Below are positions 6,130 to 33,578 of a DNA stretch of 33,720 nt, one piece after another. This stretch comes from Trueperaceae bacterium. Its GTDB lineage: Bacteria > Deinococcota > Deinococci > Deinococcales > Trueperaceae. Each line of letters begins with the position of its first letter. Positions within the stretch are counted from its first letter, which is position 1. The position numbers were made by a program, and so were the translations under genes. The stretch lies in NCBI GenBank assembly GCA_030147925.1, contig JASBUK010000021.1, positions 1-33,720 of the forward strand, read 5' to 3'. Below the pieces are notes generated by a model that was given only the letters and a program-made list of their open reading frames with translations, was not told the DNA's origin and made no database searches.

Positions 6130-6957
6130 GTGCCTTATGTTGCTGATGGGCGCATCTTGATTGAACGTGCTTTTGCAGGTCAATATGCCATGCCCGCTTT
6201 TAACGTCTGTAGTCTGGAAATGGCCAGGGCATGCATAGAGGCCGCCGAGCTCGAGCATGCCCCTATCATTTTGCAAACCTATCCCGGCGACCTAGAGCAA
6301 GCGTCGCCTGGCGTAATGGCGGCGATGATTAGAGCGCTGGCGGAGGAAGCTGCCGTGCCGGTGATGTTGCATCTGGATCATGGTGATTCGCTCGAGCTTG
6401 CCACAAAGTGCCTAAGGGCCGGTTATTCATCGCTGATGTTTGACGGTGAAGAATTTTCTATAGAGGAGAACATACGCAAAACACGTGAGATTGCCAGCAT
6501 TGCCCATGCCGCTGGAGTCTCTCTAGAGGCAGCCGCCGGTAGCTTTGGCAGTGGTGAAGGTAAAGAAGAAGCCTTGCACCTCACCGACCCCGAAGTTGCG
6601 GCACGACTTTATGAAGAAGCAAAAGCTGACATGGTGGCCTGTTCGGTTGGGTCGCGTCATGGCCAAGTCAGCCAGCTTGACTTAGATAGACTCAGGGCTA
6701 TTTACGAGCTTGTTCAGAAGCCGATTGTGCTACACGGCGGCACCGGCATCCCGGCTGAGGATTTAAAGCAAGCCGTTAGTCTGGGTGTGGTTAAGGTTAA
6801 TATCGGCGCGGGTTTGCTCCGCGCGCTACTTGCAGTGTGGCAACGCGACTCAGCCGCTGCGCCTACGCATTATGATGTTTACCATTCAGCCCGTGAGGCG
6901 CTCATTGCGGTTGCCCGGGAGAAGATTCAAATTATGGGGGGCTCGAGCAAAGCCTAG
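6130..6957 (+). CDS. Class II (zinc) ketose-bisphosphate aldolase, GatY/KbaY/Fba-like
   Basis: A 275-residue TIM-barrel aldolase starting at GTG 6130 with the ribosome site GGAGGG inside the kinase tail. Expected class II features are visible: LHLDHG (catalytic Asp83 and zinc ligand His84), LMFDGE, His177 in GSRHGQ, His202 in LHGGTGIP and the phosphate-binding VNIGAG. The helper motif normally reading E-A-E-L-G reads E-A-A-A-G (residues 133-137), so the second glutamate (Glu174 in E. coli FbaA), an auxiliary zinc ligand, is alanine. Together with the upstream kinase it would cleave a phosphorylated ketose into dihydroxyacetone phosphate and an aldehyde. It is the last gene of the operon and converges on the oxidoreductase gene 9 nt away. 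Confidence 0.87.
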   Translation: MPYVADGRILIERAFAGQYAMPAFNVCSLEMARACIEAAELEHAPIILQTYPGDLEQASPGVMAAMIRALAEEAAVPVMLHLDHGDSLELATKCLRAGYSSLMFDGEEFSIEENIRKTREIASIAHAAGVSLEAAAGSFGSGEGKEEALHLTDPEVAARLYEEAKADMVACSVGSRHGQVSQLDLDRLRAIYELVQKPIVLHGGTGIPAEDLKQAVSLGVVKVNIGAGLLRALLAVWQRDSAAAPTHYDVYHSAREALIAVAREKIQIMGGSSKA

Positions 6958-28152: not shown

Positions 28153-28159
28153 TATGCCC

Positions 28160-29530
28160 ATGATTAGACTTGACACGAAAAATATTGCCAGCGAACGTCT
28201 TGGTAAAGAGCATGGCATTGATACTGCTAGAGAGTTCTCAGCCTGGGCAAAAAAATTAGATGGTTTTGTTGCAGACCTAAGAAAGCGTAAAACTGATCCC
28301 AAGGCTATGCTTGGCTGGATTGACCTGCCTGAAAATAATGGCGAACTGGCTGCTATTGAAACTTACGCGGCTCAGCTAGACGAAAAGTTCACTGATCTGA
28401 TAGTGCTGGGTATTGGGGGCTCGAGCTTAGGCGCTCTGACCGTAGTTACGGCGCTGCAACACCCTTACCGCAATTTACAGGCACAGGGCCAGGGCTTGCG
28501 AGTTCATTTTGTCGACAATGTCGATCCGGACGTTATCAAAGGCCTAAGCGAAGTGCTTAATCCTCAAACCACGCTGGTAAACGTCATTAGCAAGTCGGGT
28601 ACAACCGCTGAAACGATGTCGGCTTATCTGGCCTTTAAACAGTGGCTGCAAGATGCCGTAGGCGAGGCTTACAAGAAGCAAATTATTGCCACTACCGACC
28701 CCGAGGCCGGCATCTTACGGCCACTGGCCAGGCGCGAAGGCTATACGACCTTTGAAGTACCCCCGTCGGTAGGCGGACGTTTTAGCGTTTTATCCGCCGT
28801 AGGTCTCTTACCGATAGCTTTGGCCGGAATTGACCTGCGCGAACTGCTGCGTGGCGCTGCCGCTGCCAACGCCATGATTGAAAAACCCATTGCCGAAAAT
28901 CCCATCAAACAGTCGGCGCTTATTCAGTACCTGGCTTATCGTCGCGGTAAAGCAATTAGTGTGCTCATGCCCTACAGCACCCGCCTGCGCTATCTCAGCA
29001 ACTGGTACGTGCAACTTTGGGCCGAGTCTCTGGGCAAGGCCGTCAACCGCGACGGCAGTTTAGTAAACGAAGGCAGCACACCGCTCGCCGCACTAGGCGC
29101 TACCGATCAGCACTCGCAAGTGCAATTGTTTAACGAAGGCCCGAACAACAAAATCGTGACCTTTGTGCGTGTTGCCAACTTTGATAACGAAACCCTGATT
29201 CCCGATGCCGAGCCAGGAGTTGCGCAGCTAAGCTATCTTGCCAAGCAAAGCTTTAATCGCCTGATAAACGCCGAACAATCTGCCACGGCACATGCCATTG
29301 CCGCCCATGGCCGCCCCAACTACACCATTGAGCTAAAGAGGCTTGACGCTTATAACTTAGGCTTTTTACTACAGTTTTTTGAATGGCAAACGGCTCTGAT
29401 GGGTGAACTGACCTATATAGATACCTACAATCAACCCGGTGTCGAACTTGGTAAAAAATACACCTATGCGCTCATGGGTCGCGAAGGTTACGAAGACTTG
29501 CGTAAAGAACTAGAAGAAGCAGGCATCTGA
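28160..29530 (+). CDS. pgi: Glucose-6-phosphate isomerase
   Basis: About 456 residues, the shorter bacterial form. LGIGGSSLGALTVV (substrate phosphate loop), VISKSGTTAETMSAYLAF, PPSVGGRFSVLSAVGLLP (PGI signature 1 region), NEGSTPLAALGATDQHSQVQL (with the ring-opening histidine region) and the late QPGVELGKKY lysine segment are all present. It interconverts glucose-6-phosphate and fructose-6-phosphate. It is the last gene carrying the window's GCTCGAGC octamer (28419-28426) and the last with a clear host-type leaderless promoter. A 6-bp inverted repeat overlaps its stop codon. Confidence 0.96.
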   Translation: MIRLDTKNIASERLGKEHGIDTAREFSAWAKKLDGFVADLRKRKTDPKAMLGWIDLPENNGELAAIETYAAQLDEKFTDLIVLGIGGSSLGALTVVTALQHPYRNLQAQGQGLRVHFVDNVDPDVIKGLSEVLNPQTTLVNVISKSGTTAETMSAYLAFKQWLQDAVGEAYKKQIIATTDPEAGILRPLARREGYTTFEVPPSVGGRFSVLSAVGLLPIALAGIDLRELLRGAAAANAMIEKPIAENPIKQSALIQYLAYRRGKAISVLMPYSTRLRYLSNWYVQLWAESLGKAVNRDGSLVNEGSTPLAALGATDQHSQVQLFNEGPNNKIVTFVRVANFDNETLIPDAEPGVAQLSYLAKQSFNRLINAEQSATAHAIAAHGRPNYTIELKRLDAYNLGFLLQFFEWQTALMGELTYIDTYNQPGVELGKKYTYALMGREGYEDLRKELEEAGI

Positions 29531-29564
29531 GCTGAATGCTCAGTGATGGGTAGAAGTAGAAGGT

Positions 29565-29613
29565 AAGGAACGAGCGGTGCTTTTTGCTGTCCGAGCGCAT
29601 GCGATTGTTGGGT
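29565..29613 (-). other. Degenerate attC-like site at the left edge of the cassette segment
   Basis: On the minus strand ACCCAAC (R-Y-Y-Y-A-A-C) is followed by an imperfect palindrome with CTCGGAC, a five-A loop and CACCG, then GTTCCTT, which does not fit the R' box. It looks like an attC whose far arm is eroded or fused to other DNA. It marks the change from host-type sequence to the right-hand segment. Confidence 0.35.
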
Positions 29614-29680
29614 CTATAGCAAAAAATAGGGCGATAAACAAAGCAATAGCTCAGCTATAAACTGCACAAAATGGCACGTA

Positions 29681-29995
29681 CTATCGGGGTATTACGCCTT
29701 TTCCTTTTTCGCCGTGATGTAGGAAATCCCAGGCACCATGCAGTGCTAGACCCGCAACCAAGAACCACCAGCTTGTCCAAAGTCCAAGCAGAGCTAAAGC
29801 AACGAAGAACACACACCCGACGACTTGTTTGACGATGCCAAGCTTGCCCTTCGCCGTAAGCGCAAACCCCACATAGATGGCTGCTATTAGTGTCAACAGG
29901 TTCGAGGCAGCTCCGCGCGCCCACTCAACGGGCAACACAACCAGGAGCAGGCTGGTGATAATGGCAAGACCGATTCCAATAAGTACTTCGCGCAT
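29681..29995 (-). CDS. Small integral membrane protein of unknown function, cassette-like
   Basis: 104 residues with about three hydrophobic segments (residues 5-25, 32-48 and 57-86) and a C-terminal LHGAWDFLHHGEKGKG motif. That His/Trp/Asp/His-His signature appears in small membrane proteins of unknown function (compare DUF6010-like proteins). It starts 10 nt after an attC-like R' box with no ribosome site and lies between two attC-like sequences on the same strand, the usual position of an integron gene cassette. The window's host octamer is absent. Function is not assignable. Confidence 0.65.
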   Translation of the reverse strand: MREVLIGIGLAIITSLLLVVLPVEWARGAASNLLTLIAAIYVGFALTAKGKLGIVKQVVGCVFFVALALLGLWTSWWFLVAGLALHGAWDFLHHGEKGKGVIPR

Positions 29996-30005
29996 AAATT
30001 TAGAA

Positions 30006-30025
30006 ACCTAACGGTGGAGTTGGGT
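30006..30025 (-). other. Collapsed attC-like site between two small genes
   Basis: Minus strand ACCCAAC, 6 nt, GTTAGGT: both conserved attC core boxes (RYYYAAC and GTTRRRY) are intact, but the roughly 45-bp central palindrome is missing. It sits exactly in the 34-nt gap between the DUF5680 and membrane-protein genes. Chance occurrence cannot be excluded. Confidence 0.35.
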
Positions 30026-30029
30026 CTCA

Positions 30030-30500
30030 CTACTCCTGGACAACGCCCCCATGATACACCAGTTCATATACCCGCACACCCTCGCGCTCAATCCATTCTC
30101 TGCCCTGAAAGAACAGCACATCGCCCTCACTGGTGTCGATGTACTTGAAGTCATCCACGCTGTGCGCGAACCCGCCGAGGAATCGGCCCTCACGATACAT
30201 GCGCGACAAACTGGCCTTAATCACCTGACCGGCTTGCGCAGCGGTGATGCGGTCTGGCTGGAGGATGTGCCCGAAGTAGTTCATGCCCCAGACGATGTGG
30301 CGACGATGATAGATGACTTCCTGGCCGATGAAATCGCGCTCACCGAGGTAACTATCGTGGTAAGTCCAGTCGCCGTCGCTGAACTGGAGGTCATGTGAGC
30401 CGAGGCGATAAGGCAAGAGGGTGAGGCCATCGCCGACATAGGTGGCCTGCTTGGCGCGGACGATGAAGTCATGCAGGGCTTGAGTGGGAACATGGCTCAT
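30030..30500 (-). CDS. DUF5680-like protein, cassette-like
   Basis: 156 residues, soluble, aromatic-rich. The HDLQFSDGDWTYHDSYLGERDFIGQEVIYHRRHIVWGMNYFG stretch matches my recollection of DUF5680 proteins, small mixed alpha/beta domains found in transferred DNA of many bacteria. A C-terminal half with REGRFLGGF and GREWIEREGVRVYELVYHGG follows. No catalytic motif is clear. It lies between the full attC-like site (30574-30632) and the collapsed one (30006-30025) on the same strand, and 34 nt before the membrane-protein gene. No Shine-Dalgarno site precedes ATG 30500. Codon and octamer features differ from the left part of the window. Confidence 0.7.
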   Translation of the reverse strand: MSHVPTQALHDFIVRAKQATYVGDGLTLLPYRLGSHDLQFSDGDWTYHDSYLGERDFIGQEVIYHRRHIVWGMNYFGHILQPDRITAAQAGQVIKASLSRMYREGRFLGGFAHSVDDFKYIDTSEGDVLFFQGREWIEREGVRVYELVYHGGVVQE

Positions 30501-30573
30501 GGCAGTATCAATATCTCGTGGCGACTATGCGGTTACAGCAGTGAGTGGATGAATGCACGATGAGTGGTGTGCG

Positions 30574-30632
30574 GCCCAACGATATCCTTAAGCGGCGCAG
30601 CTTTTCGCGTCCGCTTGAAGGGCTGGTTCGAC
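30574..30632 (-). other. attC site (59-base element) of an integron cassette
   Basis: Exactly 59 bp on the minus strand. It has an R''-like box GTCGAAC, a left arm CTTCAAGCGGACGCG, a short A-rich loop, a right arm CGCCGCTTAAGG and an R' box GTTGGGC that fits GTTRRRY. The arms TTCAAGCGG and CCGCTTAA form the imperfect inverted repeat expected of a folded attC. The R'' box deviates at one position from RYYYAAC. No intI gene or attI site is in the window. Confidence 0.65.
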
Positions 30633-30654
30633 GCCTTACGTCTTTCCTTATCAA

Positions 30655-30750
30655 TCAACGATTTTCAACGCTACGTATTTTTGGCCAAGGCCTTTTTCGG
30701 TCTTGACGCTCGTATAGCTCATAGGACAACTGCTCGATTTGCTTTGTCAT
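30655..30750 (-). CDS. 31-residue ORF overlapping the ATPase stop codon
   Basis: ATG 30750 shares four bases (ATGA) with the ATPase stop and has GAGGAAC about 8 nt upstream, inside the ATPase gene. The 31 residues (start MTKQIEQLSYELYERQ, end RSVENR) are charged and helical, then basic. It stops 22 bp before the attC-like site, so it may be a truncated remnant of a longer gene. The YELYERQ segment recalls the start of small DUF2934 proteins, but it is too short to assign. Confidence 0.35.
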   Translation of the reverse strand: MTKQIEQLSYELYERQDRKRPWPKIRSVENR

Positions 30751-33227
30751 ATCGGGGAGTTCCTCGGTAACAGCGGCGGCTCGGTGGGATCAAAAACCCG
30801 ATACGTGAGCAATTTTACGCGGTCATTGACGAGAAACCACACCAGCGCATAGCCCCAGACGAACCCTGCCCAGCCCCAGCCGAGTGGTGCCATGAACACG
30901 CCATACACCGCGATCAAGGTCGCGATGATTTGCGTGCCGACTACGGCTATCCACAGAATTCGCGCCGGACGGATCGACCAGAACGGGCCGCGTGTGCGGG
31001 TCAAGAAGATCGTTAGATGTCCCGCCACCGACAGCTTCAAATATATCAGCGTCTGGATGTGTGCACGGTCGAGGTGAAACACGCGTTCACCCAGATAAAA
31101 CAAACCAAAGGCGGAAACCACTCCGATGACACCCAGCACCGTCGAGATTCCCAATACCATGTGCATATCCCAGGACTCGGGCTTGTCCTTGTAATGCACC
31201 TTGTCATAGGCAATAGAGAGAATCGCACCGTCATTGAGCAGCGCCAGCAGCACGATCATCACCGCAGTCACCGGGTAAAAATTAAAGACCAGGATCGACA
31301 GCGTCATGAACAACAGCACCCGCAGCGTTTCGGTAATGCGGTAGATAGCGTAGCTATTCATGCGCTGGAAGATTTTGCGGCTTTCCTTGATCGCGTCGAT
31401 GATCACTGACAGCCCCGGTGTCATCAGCACGATGTCCGCTGCCGCACGCGCCGCGTCCGTTGCGTCGGACACCGCGATGCCGCAATCGGCCTTCTTCAGC
31501 GCGGGGGCGTCATTTACTCCGTCGCCGGTCATGCCGACGATGTGACCGCGTTGTTGCAGGACATCAATAATGTGGAACTTGTGTTCGGGGAAGACCTGAG
31601 CAAAGCCATCGGCGTGTTCGATGGACTCCGACAGTTGCGCGGTCTCGTGATGCTTGGTATCGCCGAAACCACTGGCATCGAGGATATTGGTGCCCAGCCC
31701 CAATTTAGCAGCGGTTTCTCTGGCAATGGCCATGGCATCGCCCGTCACCATTTTAATCTTCACACCCATCGCGCGCGCAGTCGCGATAGTCGCCCTGGCT
31801 TGTTCCCGCGGCGGATCGAACAGCGGTAACACACCGAGGAACTGCCACTCACCGTTACCCTCGGCACGCGCTACGCCTAAGGAACGAAAGCCGCGCGACG
31901 CAAATTCGTTAACCGCTCTATCAACCGCGGACTTCACCTGCTCGGCATTGGAAGACAATTCCAGAATCACCTGCGGCGCGCCCTTGGTTACTTTGAATTC
32001 TTTTCCATCCGCCGCTTTGACGCTGGCCTCGGTGCGCTTATGCACCGGATCGAATGGCTGGAAATGCACGACGTCAAAACCCGTTAACGCATCCTTGTCT
32101 TTCAATCCGCCCAGCACCGCCAGGTCGATTGTGTCTTTGTTATCTGCGCGCGATGCCATCGCGGCGTTGAGGATGAGCTGCTCGACAGGGATGTCATTGA
32201 CGCTGAACGGATCGCCCAGTGTCAGCTTGTTCTGAGTCAGGGTACCGGTTTTGTCTGCACACAGCATATCCACGCCAGCCAGTTCTTCGATGGCTGCGAG
32301 CCGGGTTACGATTGCCTCTTTTTTGGCCAGTAGGCGGGCGCCGACCGCCATAGTCACCGACAATACCGTGGGCATCGCCACTGGAATCGCGGCCACGGTC
32401 AGCACCAGAGCAAACTGCAAGGCAGTCAGGATCGGGTCGCCGCGAAACAGCGCGACCGTGATAATCACCGCTACCAACGTGACCGCAAGGATGATCAGGT
32501 AATTGCCGATCTTCAACACCGTGCGTTGAAAATGGCTGACGTTCTGCGCCTCTTGCACTAGTTGCGCGGTCTTGCCAAAGTAGGTGTTGGCACCAGTAGC
32601 GTAGACCAGCGCGTCGATCTCGCCGGTGCGGATGATGGAACCGGAGAATACCGCATCACCGGATTTGTGCGTGACGGGCAAGGACTCGCCTGTCAGTGCA
32701 GATTGATCCACTTCGATCGGGTCACCTTCCAGCAAACGCGCATCTGCCGGCACGATGTCGCCCAGACGCAGATGGATGACGTCGCCCGGCACCAACTCAC
32801 GCGCCGCCGGGTTGATCCACTTGCCATCGCGTTTCACCTGAGCCTTGATCGCCAGCTTGGCCTTCAGCGCGGCGATGGCGTTGCCTGCCTGATGTTCTTC
32901 CCAGAATTCGACTATAGCGTTGGCCAGAAGCAGCACGAGGATGATACCGAAGTCCGGCCAATGTTGCGCAACCGCCGATAGGATCACAGCCGCTTCAATC
33001 ATCCACGGAATCGGTCCCCAGAAATAACTGAGAAATTTCAGGAAGGCATTGGTTTGCTTTTCTTCAAGTTCATTCGGCCCGTATTGACTCAGCCTTTTTT
33101 GCGCCTCGGCCTGACTAAGGCCGTTCGGTGAAGTTCGCAGCTCAGCCTGTAGCTGTGCCAGCTCTAAGTTTTTCCATTCATCGTTATCGCCATCGTGTTG
33201 GCTTGCTGGCTCCGTTTTCACATGCAT
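30747..33227 (-). CDS. Plasma-membrane proton-efflux P-type ATPase (type IIIA)
   Basis: 826 residues. The order is a soluble N-terminal segment, YGPNELEEK, membrane helices 1-2, the actuator loop with SALTGESLP, helices 3-4 (VAAIPVAMPTVL), the phosphorylated DKTGTLT (about residue 325), KGAPQVILEL, the hinge GDGVNDAPALKKADCGIAVSDATDAARAAADIVL and the C-terminal helices. Length and the absence of heavy-metal domains match fungal/plant-type H+-ATPases found in many Proteobacteria and archaea. They pump protons out of the cytoplasm using ATP. It is probably transcribed alone or with the upstream truncated methyltransferase. It contains no GCTCGAGC octamer, in contrast to the left part of the window. 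Confidence 0.95.
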   Translation of the reverse strand: MHVKTEPASQHDGDNDEWKNLELAQLQAELRTSPNGLSQAEAQKRLSQYGPNELEEKQTNAFLKFLSYFWGPIPWMIEAAVILSAVAQHWPDFGIILVLLLANAIVEFWEEHQAGNAIAALKAKLAIKAQVKRDGKWINPAARELVPGDVIHLRLGDIVPADARLLEGDPIEVDQSALTGESLPVTHKSGDAVFSGSIIRTGEIDALVYATGANTYFGKTAQLVQEAQNVSHFQRTVLKIGNYLIILAVTLVAVIITVALFRGDPILTALQFALVLTVAAIPVAMPTVLSVTMAVGARLLAKKEAIVTRLAAIEELAGVDMLCADKTGTLTQNKLTLGDPFSVNDIPVEQLILNAAMASRADNKDTIDLAVLGGLKDKDALTGFDVVHFQPFDPVHKRTEASVKAADGKEFKVTKGAPQVILELSSNAEQVKSAVDRAVNEFASRGFRSLGVARAEGNGEWQFLGVLPLFDPPREQARATIATARAMGVKIKMVTGDAMAIARETAAKLGLGTNILDASGFGDTKHHETAQLSESIEHADGFAQVFPEHKFHIIDVLQQRGHIVGMTGDGVNDAPALKKADCGIAVSDATDAARAAADIVLMTPGLSVIIDAIKESRKIFQRMNSYAIYRITETLRVLLFMTLSILVFNFYPVTAVMIVLLALLNDGAILSIAYDKVHYKDKPESWDMHMVLGISTVLGVIGVVSAFGLFYLGERVFHLDRAHIQTLIYLKLSVAGHLTIFLTRTRGPFWSIRPARILWIAVVGTQIIATLIAVYGVFMAPLGWGWAGFVWGYALVWFLVNDRVKLLTYRVFDPTEPPLLPRNSPI

Positions 33228-33326
33228 CCTCCATGGTTAGATTGACCTGGGCAACCTATTTCTATCGTACGTCGAACGGCTTTGAGTTATGCAGCATTCA
33301 GGATTTCCCATCAGAGCGACACCCGA

Positions 33327-33578
33327 TTAAGACCCCCGGGGAAAGATCCTCGGGATTAGGAATGGGGTCTCCGCCTTATAGACCAAGTAATCTTCTCCAA
33401 ATCGCGCCTCTAGTTCGCGCTCCTCAATTTGCTTGATATATGCGATGAGCAGAATGGAGAACGCGAAGACTATACCGATGGATGAGATTGATCCAATGAG
33501 GATACTAATTCCCAGATAGAAAAGAATGGTTCCGAATGACATCGGATTCCGACAGTGCTTGAATGGGCCAGATATCAA
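33327..33578 (-). pseudogene. N-terminally truncated isoprenylcysteine/phospholipid methyltransferase-like protein
   Basis: The last 80 or so residues of an ICMT/PEMT-family membrane methyltransferase. GPFKHCRNPMSFG is the conserved R-N/H-P-M motif that contacts S-adenosylmethionine. It is followed by two hydrophobic helices and the IKQIEERELEARFGEDYLVYK segment typical of the family. The N-terminal membrane helices are missing: upstream the sequence runs into an opposite-strand IS3 transposase fragment. The TTG at 33578 is unlikely to be a real start. The exact break lies between about 33570 and 33590. Confidence 0.75.

Follow-up and report, generated by a model that had tools for sequence, protein, structure and literature searches.

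A decaying gene-cassette array beside pgi in a Trueperaceae bacterium, probably the distal end of a chromosomal integron split by assembly

The window analysed here, a stretch of 33,720 nucleotides that makes up the entire contig C83 of a Trueperaceae genome (2,982,247 bases in 151 contigs), carries an intact attC site, attC1, followed on the minus strand by two small genes and the remains of two further attC sites (Table 1). Most likely this is the distal, decaying end of a chromosomal integron that entered the genome between pgi and ubiA and was divided by the assembly, with pgi lying beside the cassettes on C83 and ubiA lying downstream of an intact integron integrase gene (intI) on a second contig, C63. 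The cassettes would then look orphan because the assembly broke between them and their integrase.

Table 1. Coordinates of the features of the window and of integron parts elsewhere in the host genome and in a relative
Feature	Position	Strand	Details
pgi	28154..29530	+	host gene at the distal edge of the array; radical SAM-pgi-ubiA order kept in relatives
Degenerate terminal attC	29565..29614	-	R'' ACCCAAC and degenerate 5' half only
DUF6010-like membrane protein gene (PF19473), 104 aa	29681..29995	-	Pfam E 9.4e-7, narrowly above cut-off
Collapsed attC, stem deleted	30006..30025	-	R'' ACCCAAC, TCCACC, R' GTTAGGT
DUF5680 gene cassette, 568 bp	30012..30579	-	bounded by the R' boxes of attC1 and the collapsed attC
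DUF5680 gene (PF18931), 156 aa	30030..30500	-	Pfam E 5.2e-27
attC1	30574..30632	-	R'' GTCGAAC 30632-30626, L'' TTCAAGCGG, L' CCGCTTAA, R' GTTGGGC 30580-30574
Proton-efflux P-type ATPase gene, plasma-membrane type (IIIA), 826 aa	30747..33227	-	TIGR01647 1066.8 bits; upstream of attC1
Candidate 5' boundary of ATPase cassette, GTTCGAC	33271..33277	-	exact complement of attC1 R'' GTCGAAC, 7/7
PEMT (PF04191) phospholipid methyltransferase-like gene	33327..33578	-	Pfam E 1.4e-9; start cut off by insertion sequence
IS3-type transposase, 3' part, at contig end	33562..33720	+	rve_2 E 2e-13; single copy in assembly
C42 array	L112:5210-6690		YgaP-like membrane gene, attC, NUDIX gene, attC-like site, kinase gene
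C44 array	L113:8400-9897		CMD-family gene, attC, GNAT gene; at a contig end, after the pntB-like gene
G012 fossil	G012:C1 ~1528194-1530417 (L130:4195-6418)	intI -, attC +	broken intI; attC (31 bits) behind 567-aa gene

attC1 and its two decayed neighbours

The minus strand of attC1 reads GTCGAAC-CAGCCC-TTCAAGCGG-ACGCGAAAAGCTGCG-CCGCTTAA-GGATATC-GTTGGGC, with core boxes that fit R'' RYYYAAC and R' GTTRRRY but for a G at R'' position 4, a base also found there in two of the 23 sites used to train our covariance model. This model, R1, was built in this analysis and is not that of IntegronFinder; its 23 attC sites, aligned gap-free, all come from other genomes and none from the host. As a yardstick for attC we used 80 loci of named organisms encoding integron integrases, together with one class 1 array. 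A fixed-register scan of these loci gave 25 matches on the array side of intI, every one of them on the cassette strand, and four further matches in loci L062 and L075, where the sites are on the other strand beyond intI; the 23 training sites were drawn from these matches. R1 recovers 110 sites in the 80 intI loci (E <= 0.01) and is strand-specific, every site being on the cassette strand outside three loci that have theirs on the other strand beyond intI.

With R1, attC1 scores 40.3 bits (E 2.4e-9) and is the sole strong match in the window. A strict scan of both strands of the 33.7 kb, for core boxes and arms with one bulged base, likewise returned attC1 as its single match, with simulated sequence of the same dinucleotides yielding 0.15 weaker matches per window and full 8-pair arms in 0 of 20 simulations. 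All eight arm pairs form in attC1 when the register of real attC sites is applied. Folded as DNA, the plus strand gives a stem with one T and one G unpaired (extrahelical), and two extrahelical bases, a T and a G, are a feature of IntI-attC structures. Relative to shuffled sequences the 59-base fold gains only modest stability (z -1.4 to -1.6) and is unremarkable by itself, so that the case for attC1 depends on the R1 score. The 59-bp minus-strand element to which the earlier note ascribed attC architecture is a real attC site, borne out by the covariance-model search that the note had proposed and that was run here with our own model. A DNA similarity search with attC1 within the host genome gave matches at chance level only, an Rfam search of the window matched zero families, and direct and inverted repeats sought in 29000-31200 gave none that was informative.

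attC1 looks usable by IntI. The integrase would bind the folded bottom strand of the site, which corresponds to the plus strand of the window with its extrahelical T and G, and would cut the R' box between G and TT, as in all integrons, the crossover point in attC1 being expected between G30580 and T30579. Such recombination would excise or insert single-gene circles.

The two flanking attC-like sites described previously are both present, albeit decayed, and are probably not functional attC sites. The 20-bp site is an attC cut down to its two core boxes, and is the second-best R1 match in the window, weak when taken alone (12.5 bits, E 0.15). Box pairs of this type are an ordinary motif, with three in the window against 1.55 expected; the probability of one occurring in the right orientation inside the 34-nt intergenic gap that it occupies is 2.7e-4. 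Scored with a half-site profile, the terminal site resembles a 5' attC half that carries one extra base (P 0.004 for a 160-nt region); its 3' half is unrecognisable and the site gives no R1 match. The oldest cassettes of an array, those farthest from intI, would be expected to decay in this way.

Cassette genes and their boundaries

A cassette begins with TTRRRY and finishes in an R'' box that is the complement of this opening sequence. The DUF5680 cassette starts with GTTGGGC and ends in R'' ACCCAAC (6/7 complementary), and the DUF6010 cassette starts with GTTAGGT and ends in ACCCAAC (again 6/7). The gene-then-attC order on one strand, pointed out in the earlier note, holds for both, each consisting of one small gene followed by an attC on the same strand, with the sites after both genes decayed. 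Both genes are probably fixed, forming the decaying tail of the array, because the next site is without a stem and the last is a degenerate half. The suggestion that the same genes might be met as cassettes in other arrays found no support, as none recurs among the 80 intI-bearing loci.

DUF5680 is present in 2 of 111 Deinococcota genomes, namely the host and G001 (60% identity), with zero attC matches in the 9 kb surrounding the G001 gene. No DUF5680 was found in plasmids, and the plasmid matches to DUF6010 are distant homologues only, in two Sulfitobacter plasmids. The GC3 of the DUF5680 gene is 0.73 and that of the ATPase gene 0.69, compared with 0.51-0.63 for host-like genes.

The ATPase gene upstream of attC1 may be an oversized cassette of ~2.7 kb (33276-30580). 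This is suggested because the motif GTTCGAC, which sits 44 nt before the ATPase start codon, complements the R'' box of attC1 at every position, with a probability of 0.004 for an exact copy within 100 nt. The gap between the ATPase stop codon and attC1 is longer than usual (115 bp), and an attC upstream of the gene, sought with R1, is absent, so the ATPase cassette stays a suggestion only. If GTTCGAC is a true boundary, the ATPase gene could remain mobile as a cassette of this length. The cluster limits first proposed, 29565-30632, do enclose cassettes, but the cluster probably reaches past them, taking in the ATPase gene with its leader as far as about position 33277.

The integrase, the pgi-ubiA order and rival explanations

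A search of the host genome for intI and further attC sites, as the earlier note had advised, found an intact intI on C63, a deleted intI on C124, and attC sites on C42 and C44. The intact gene lies at the contig edge (C63:3-938), and its product matches TIGR02249 from model position 5 to the model end with 455.1 bits (cut-off 265), its identity being 57% to a Kovacikia plasmid IntI and 54% to IntI1. Residues R129, H260, R263, and Y295, which we take to be the recombinase catalytic tetrad, are invariant. The second copy opens C124 (L009:1-325) and has ~200 codons missing from its middle. The first 141 bases of C63 and of C124 are exactly the same and are found nowhere else in the assembly, so the assembler apparently broke where the two intI copies diverge, and the sequence upstream of intI, with attI and the first cassettes, is therefore absent from the assembly; neither an attI site nor proximal cassettes were found in the binned contigs. 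No intI was found on C83 itself, which stops 3.1 kb from attC1.

The gene order of relatives suggests how the two contigs would connect. In all five relatives (G005, G028, G006, G018, and G024) pgi adjoins ubiA, with a radical SAM gene preceding pgi in four of them and LON and TruD genes following ubiA in three, and the pgi-ubiA junctions of relatives are without attC. In the host, C83 carries the radical SAM gene and pgi up to the cassettes, while ubiA-LON-TruD lies on C63 downstream of intI, with about 3.7 kb of other sequence between intI and ubiA. Four genes in this interval (L008:1785-4524) resemble, by eye, DinB, Rrf2, SnoaL, and alcohol dehydrogenase genes, and the relatives have none of the four at their pgi-ubiA junction. 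When the contigs are joined, the C83 part runs pgi(+), DUF6010(-), DUF5680(-), attC1, ATPase(-), methyltransferase fragment(-), and IS3 fragment, and the C63 part, after a gap, runs intI(+), other genes, and ubiA(+), with the cassettes pointing away from intI in the canonical divergent integron layout. The integrase gene would thereby point in the direction opposite to the array, and the attI region and proximal cassettes would fall in the assembly gap. The cassettes had earlier been called orphan, with no integrase, a label that is probably wrong; the genome encodes an intact IntI, and the pgi-ubiA order would place its contig beside the right end of the window.

Some observations weigh on the other side. 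The assembly has no contig bridging C83 and C63, and neither attI nor proximal cassettes turned up in it; the IS3 fragment at the right end of C83 is non-repeated in the assembly; and the window has one intact attC only. The separation of pgi from ubiA could also have come about by an independent rearrangement.

The strongest competitor, which we regard as improbable though worth weighing, is a true CALIN, with IntI acting in trans from another locus to insert cassettes off target at an attG-like site beside pgi, so that no integrase was ever linked to the cluster. Insertion of this off-target kind is one of three proposed CALIN origins, alongside intI loss and rearrangement (PMC8618304), and the host genome does hold other small attC clusters apart from the intact intI, on C42 and C44. 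However, the contig that bears intI falls, correctly oriented, at the very break between pgi and ubiA, and a CALIN would need this to be coincidence.

The R1 matches in these clusters lie at C42:5725-5816 (31.2 bits) and C44:10816-10874 (21.3 bits), and since 150 of 808 candidates were scored with R1 in the genome-wide search, attC counts are lower bounds. A second, long attC-like site on C42, at ~6558-6682, was read by eye and missed by R1. The CMD cassette on C44 starts with GTTAGCT, matching R'' AGCTAAC at 7/7 positions, and a hairpin, TATACCGC-AGTCT-GCGGTATA, was noticed directly before the cassette start. Were C124 joined here as a second integron, the C44 cassettes would read toward, not away from, the expected position of intI; the neighbour gene on C124 was sought in six relatives and found in none of them.

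It is very unlikely that the contigs are misbinned and that the integron entered the host assembly by error from a different organism. The assembly is in 151 pieces and two of the array genes have a GC3 above that of their flanks, but the contigs with attC and intI also hold the conserved order of the family (radical SAM-pgi on one, ubiA-LON-TruD on the other), the listed contamination is 0.22%, and near-closed chromosomes of Deinococcota contain related intI or attC. A chance hairpin beside ordinary genes, with no integron at all, can practically be dismissed, for although both flanking sites are weak alone and the 59-base fold is only mildly favoured over shuffles, the R1 E-value of attC1 already refutes it, and the genome holds an intact intI and more attC arrays.

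Integrons across Deinococcota and comparison with known systems

The presence of integron cassettes in a Deinococcota chromosome, raised as notable at the outset, is supported by attC1 together with the intI of the genome, and integron parts recur in the phylum. TIGR02249 matches at E <= 1e-30 are found in 12 of the 111 Deinococcota genomes, seven of them exceeding the cut-off, and attC matches at E <= 0.01 in 4 of 39 Trueperaceae genomes. G012, a Trueperaceae genome in a single contig of 3,260,398 bp, contains a fossil integron, whose intI remnant (62.5% identity over 72 residues, E 2e-22) lies 1.9 kb from an attC, the two being in the normal layout. After the 567-aa gene and its attC, small DUF4160, RelE-like, and HigA-like genes were seen by eye. 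G085, from another Deinococcota family and in three contigs, has intI and, on its array side, three attC matches scoring 17 to 28 bits, and G051 carries both intI and attC. On G085:C1 (L158:2360-8795) the intI/attC layout appears normal, with transposase-like genes seemingly inside the array. In the Trueperaceae genomes G009 (L131-L134) and G020 (L135) several attC matches were observed, some near small toxin-like genes; the listed contamination of G009 is 9%, so the ownership of its matches is uncertain.

In one IntI tree the host protein, the G012 remnant, and the G051 protein cluster together (96/95 support), whereas in a second tree with more Deinococcota rows the host IntI falls elsewhere. 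A tree holding the Deinococcota rows together has the higher likelihood (p-AU 0.71), so common descent of these integrases is possible but not established; the intI pseudogene of G030 groups instead with a planctomycete IntI. We offer tentatively, as the less probable view, that an integron was resident in Deinococcota before another family of their order diverged from Trueperaceae, capturing cassettes of up to 2.7 kb that carry a proton pump, and was mostly lost, leaving fossils.

A 2021 review lists about fourteen integron-bearing bacterial phyla, Deinococcota not being among them (PMC8618304), and in the literature that we searched (Truepera, Trueperaceae, Deinococcota, and Meiothermus) no report of attC arrays in Deinococcota was found, reports beyond that literature being possible. 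One Thermus paper applies the term probable integron to a prophage that has attL and attR, which is a different thing. At least one near-closed Deinococcota chromosome has intI and attC in the normal layout, and integrons seem under-reported in Deinococcota. The host case is a known mechanism in a phylum apparently unlisted for integrons. It also illustrates how, in a draft genome, conserved gene order can link an orphan-looking cluster of cassettes back to its integrase. This is of importance since CALIN counts are inflated in draft genomes, where integrons are split between contigs (PMC9024848).

Like a CALIN, C83 holds attC-bounded genes without intI, but unlike one it comes from a genome with an intact intI at the expected place. 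IntegronFinder 2 by default takes at least two attC per CALIN (PMC9024848), a number above that of the window, with its one intact, one collapsed, and one half site. Cassettes with truncated attC in which R'' alone is recognisable have been described (Partridge 2009, as cited in PMC12901181); the last site of the window is similar in keeping R'' with the rest lost, whereas the 20-bp site differs in retaining both core boxes and losing the stem alone. Compared with sedentary chromosomal integrons, that of the host is split in the assembly, has few recognisable attC sites, with the distal ones decayed, and belongs to a phylum missing from the 2021 list (PMC8618304). Yet it shares with them an intact IntI (TIGR02249), attC with R and L boxes and bulged bases, and single-gene cassettes in one orientation that, if C83 and C63 are joined as we infer, diverge from intI.
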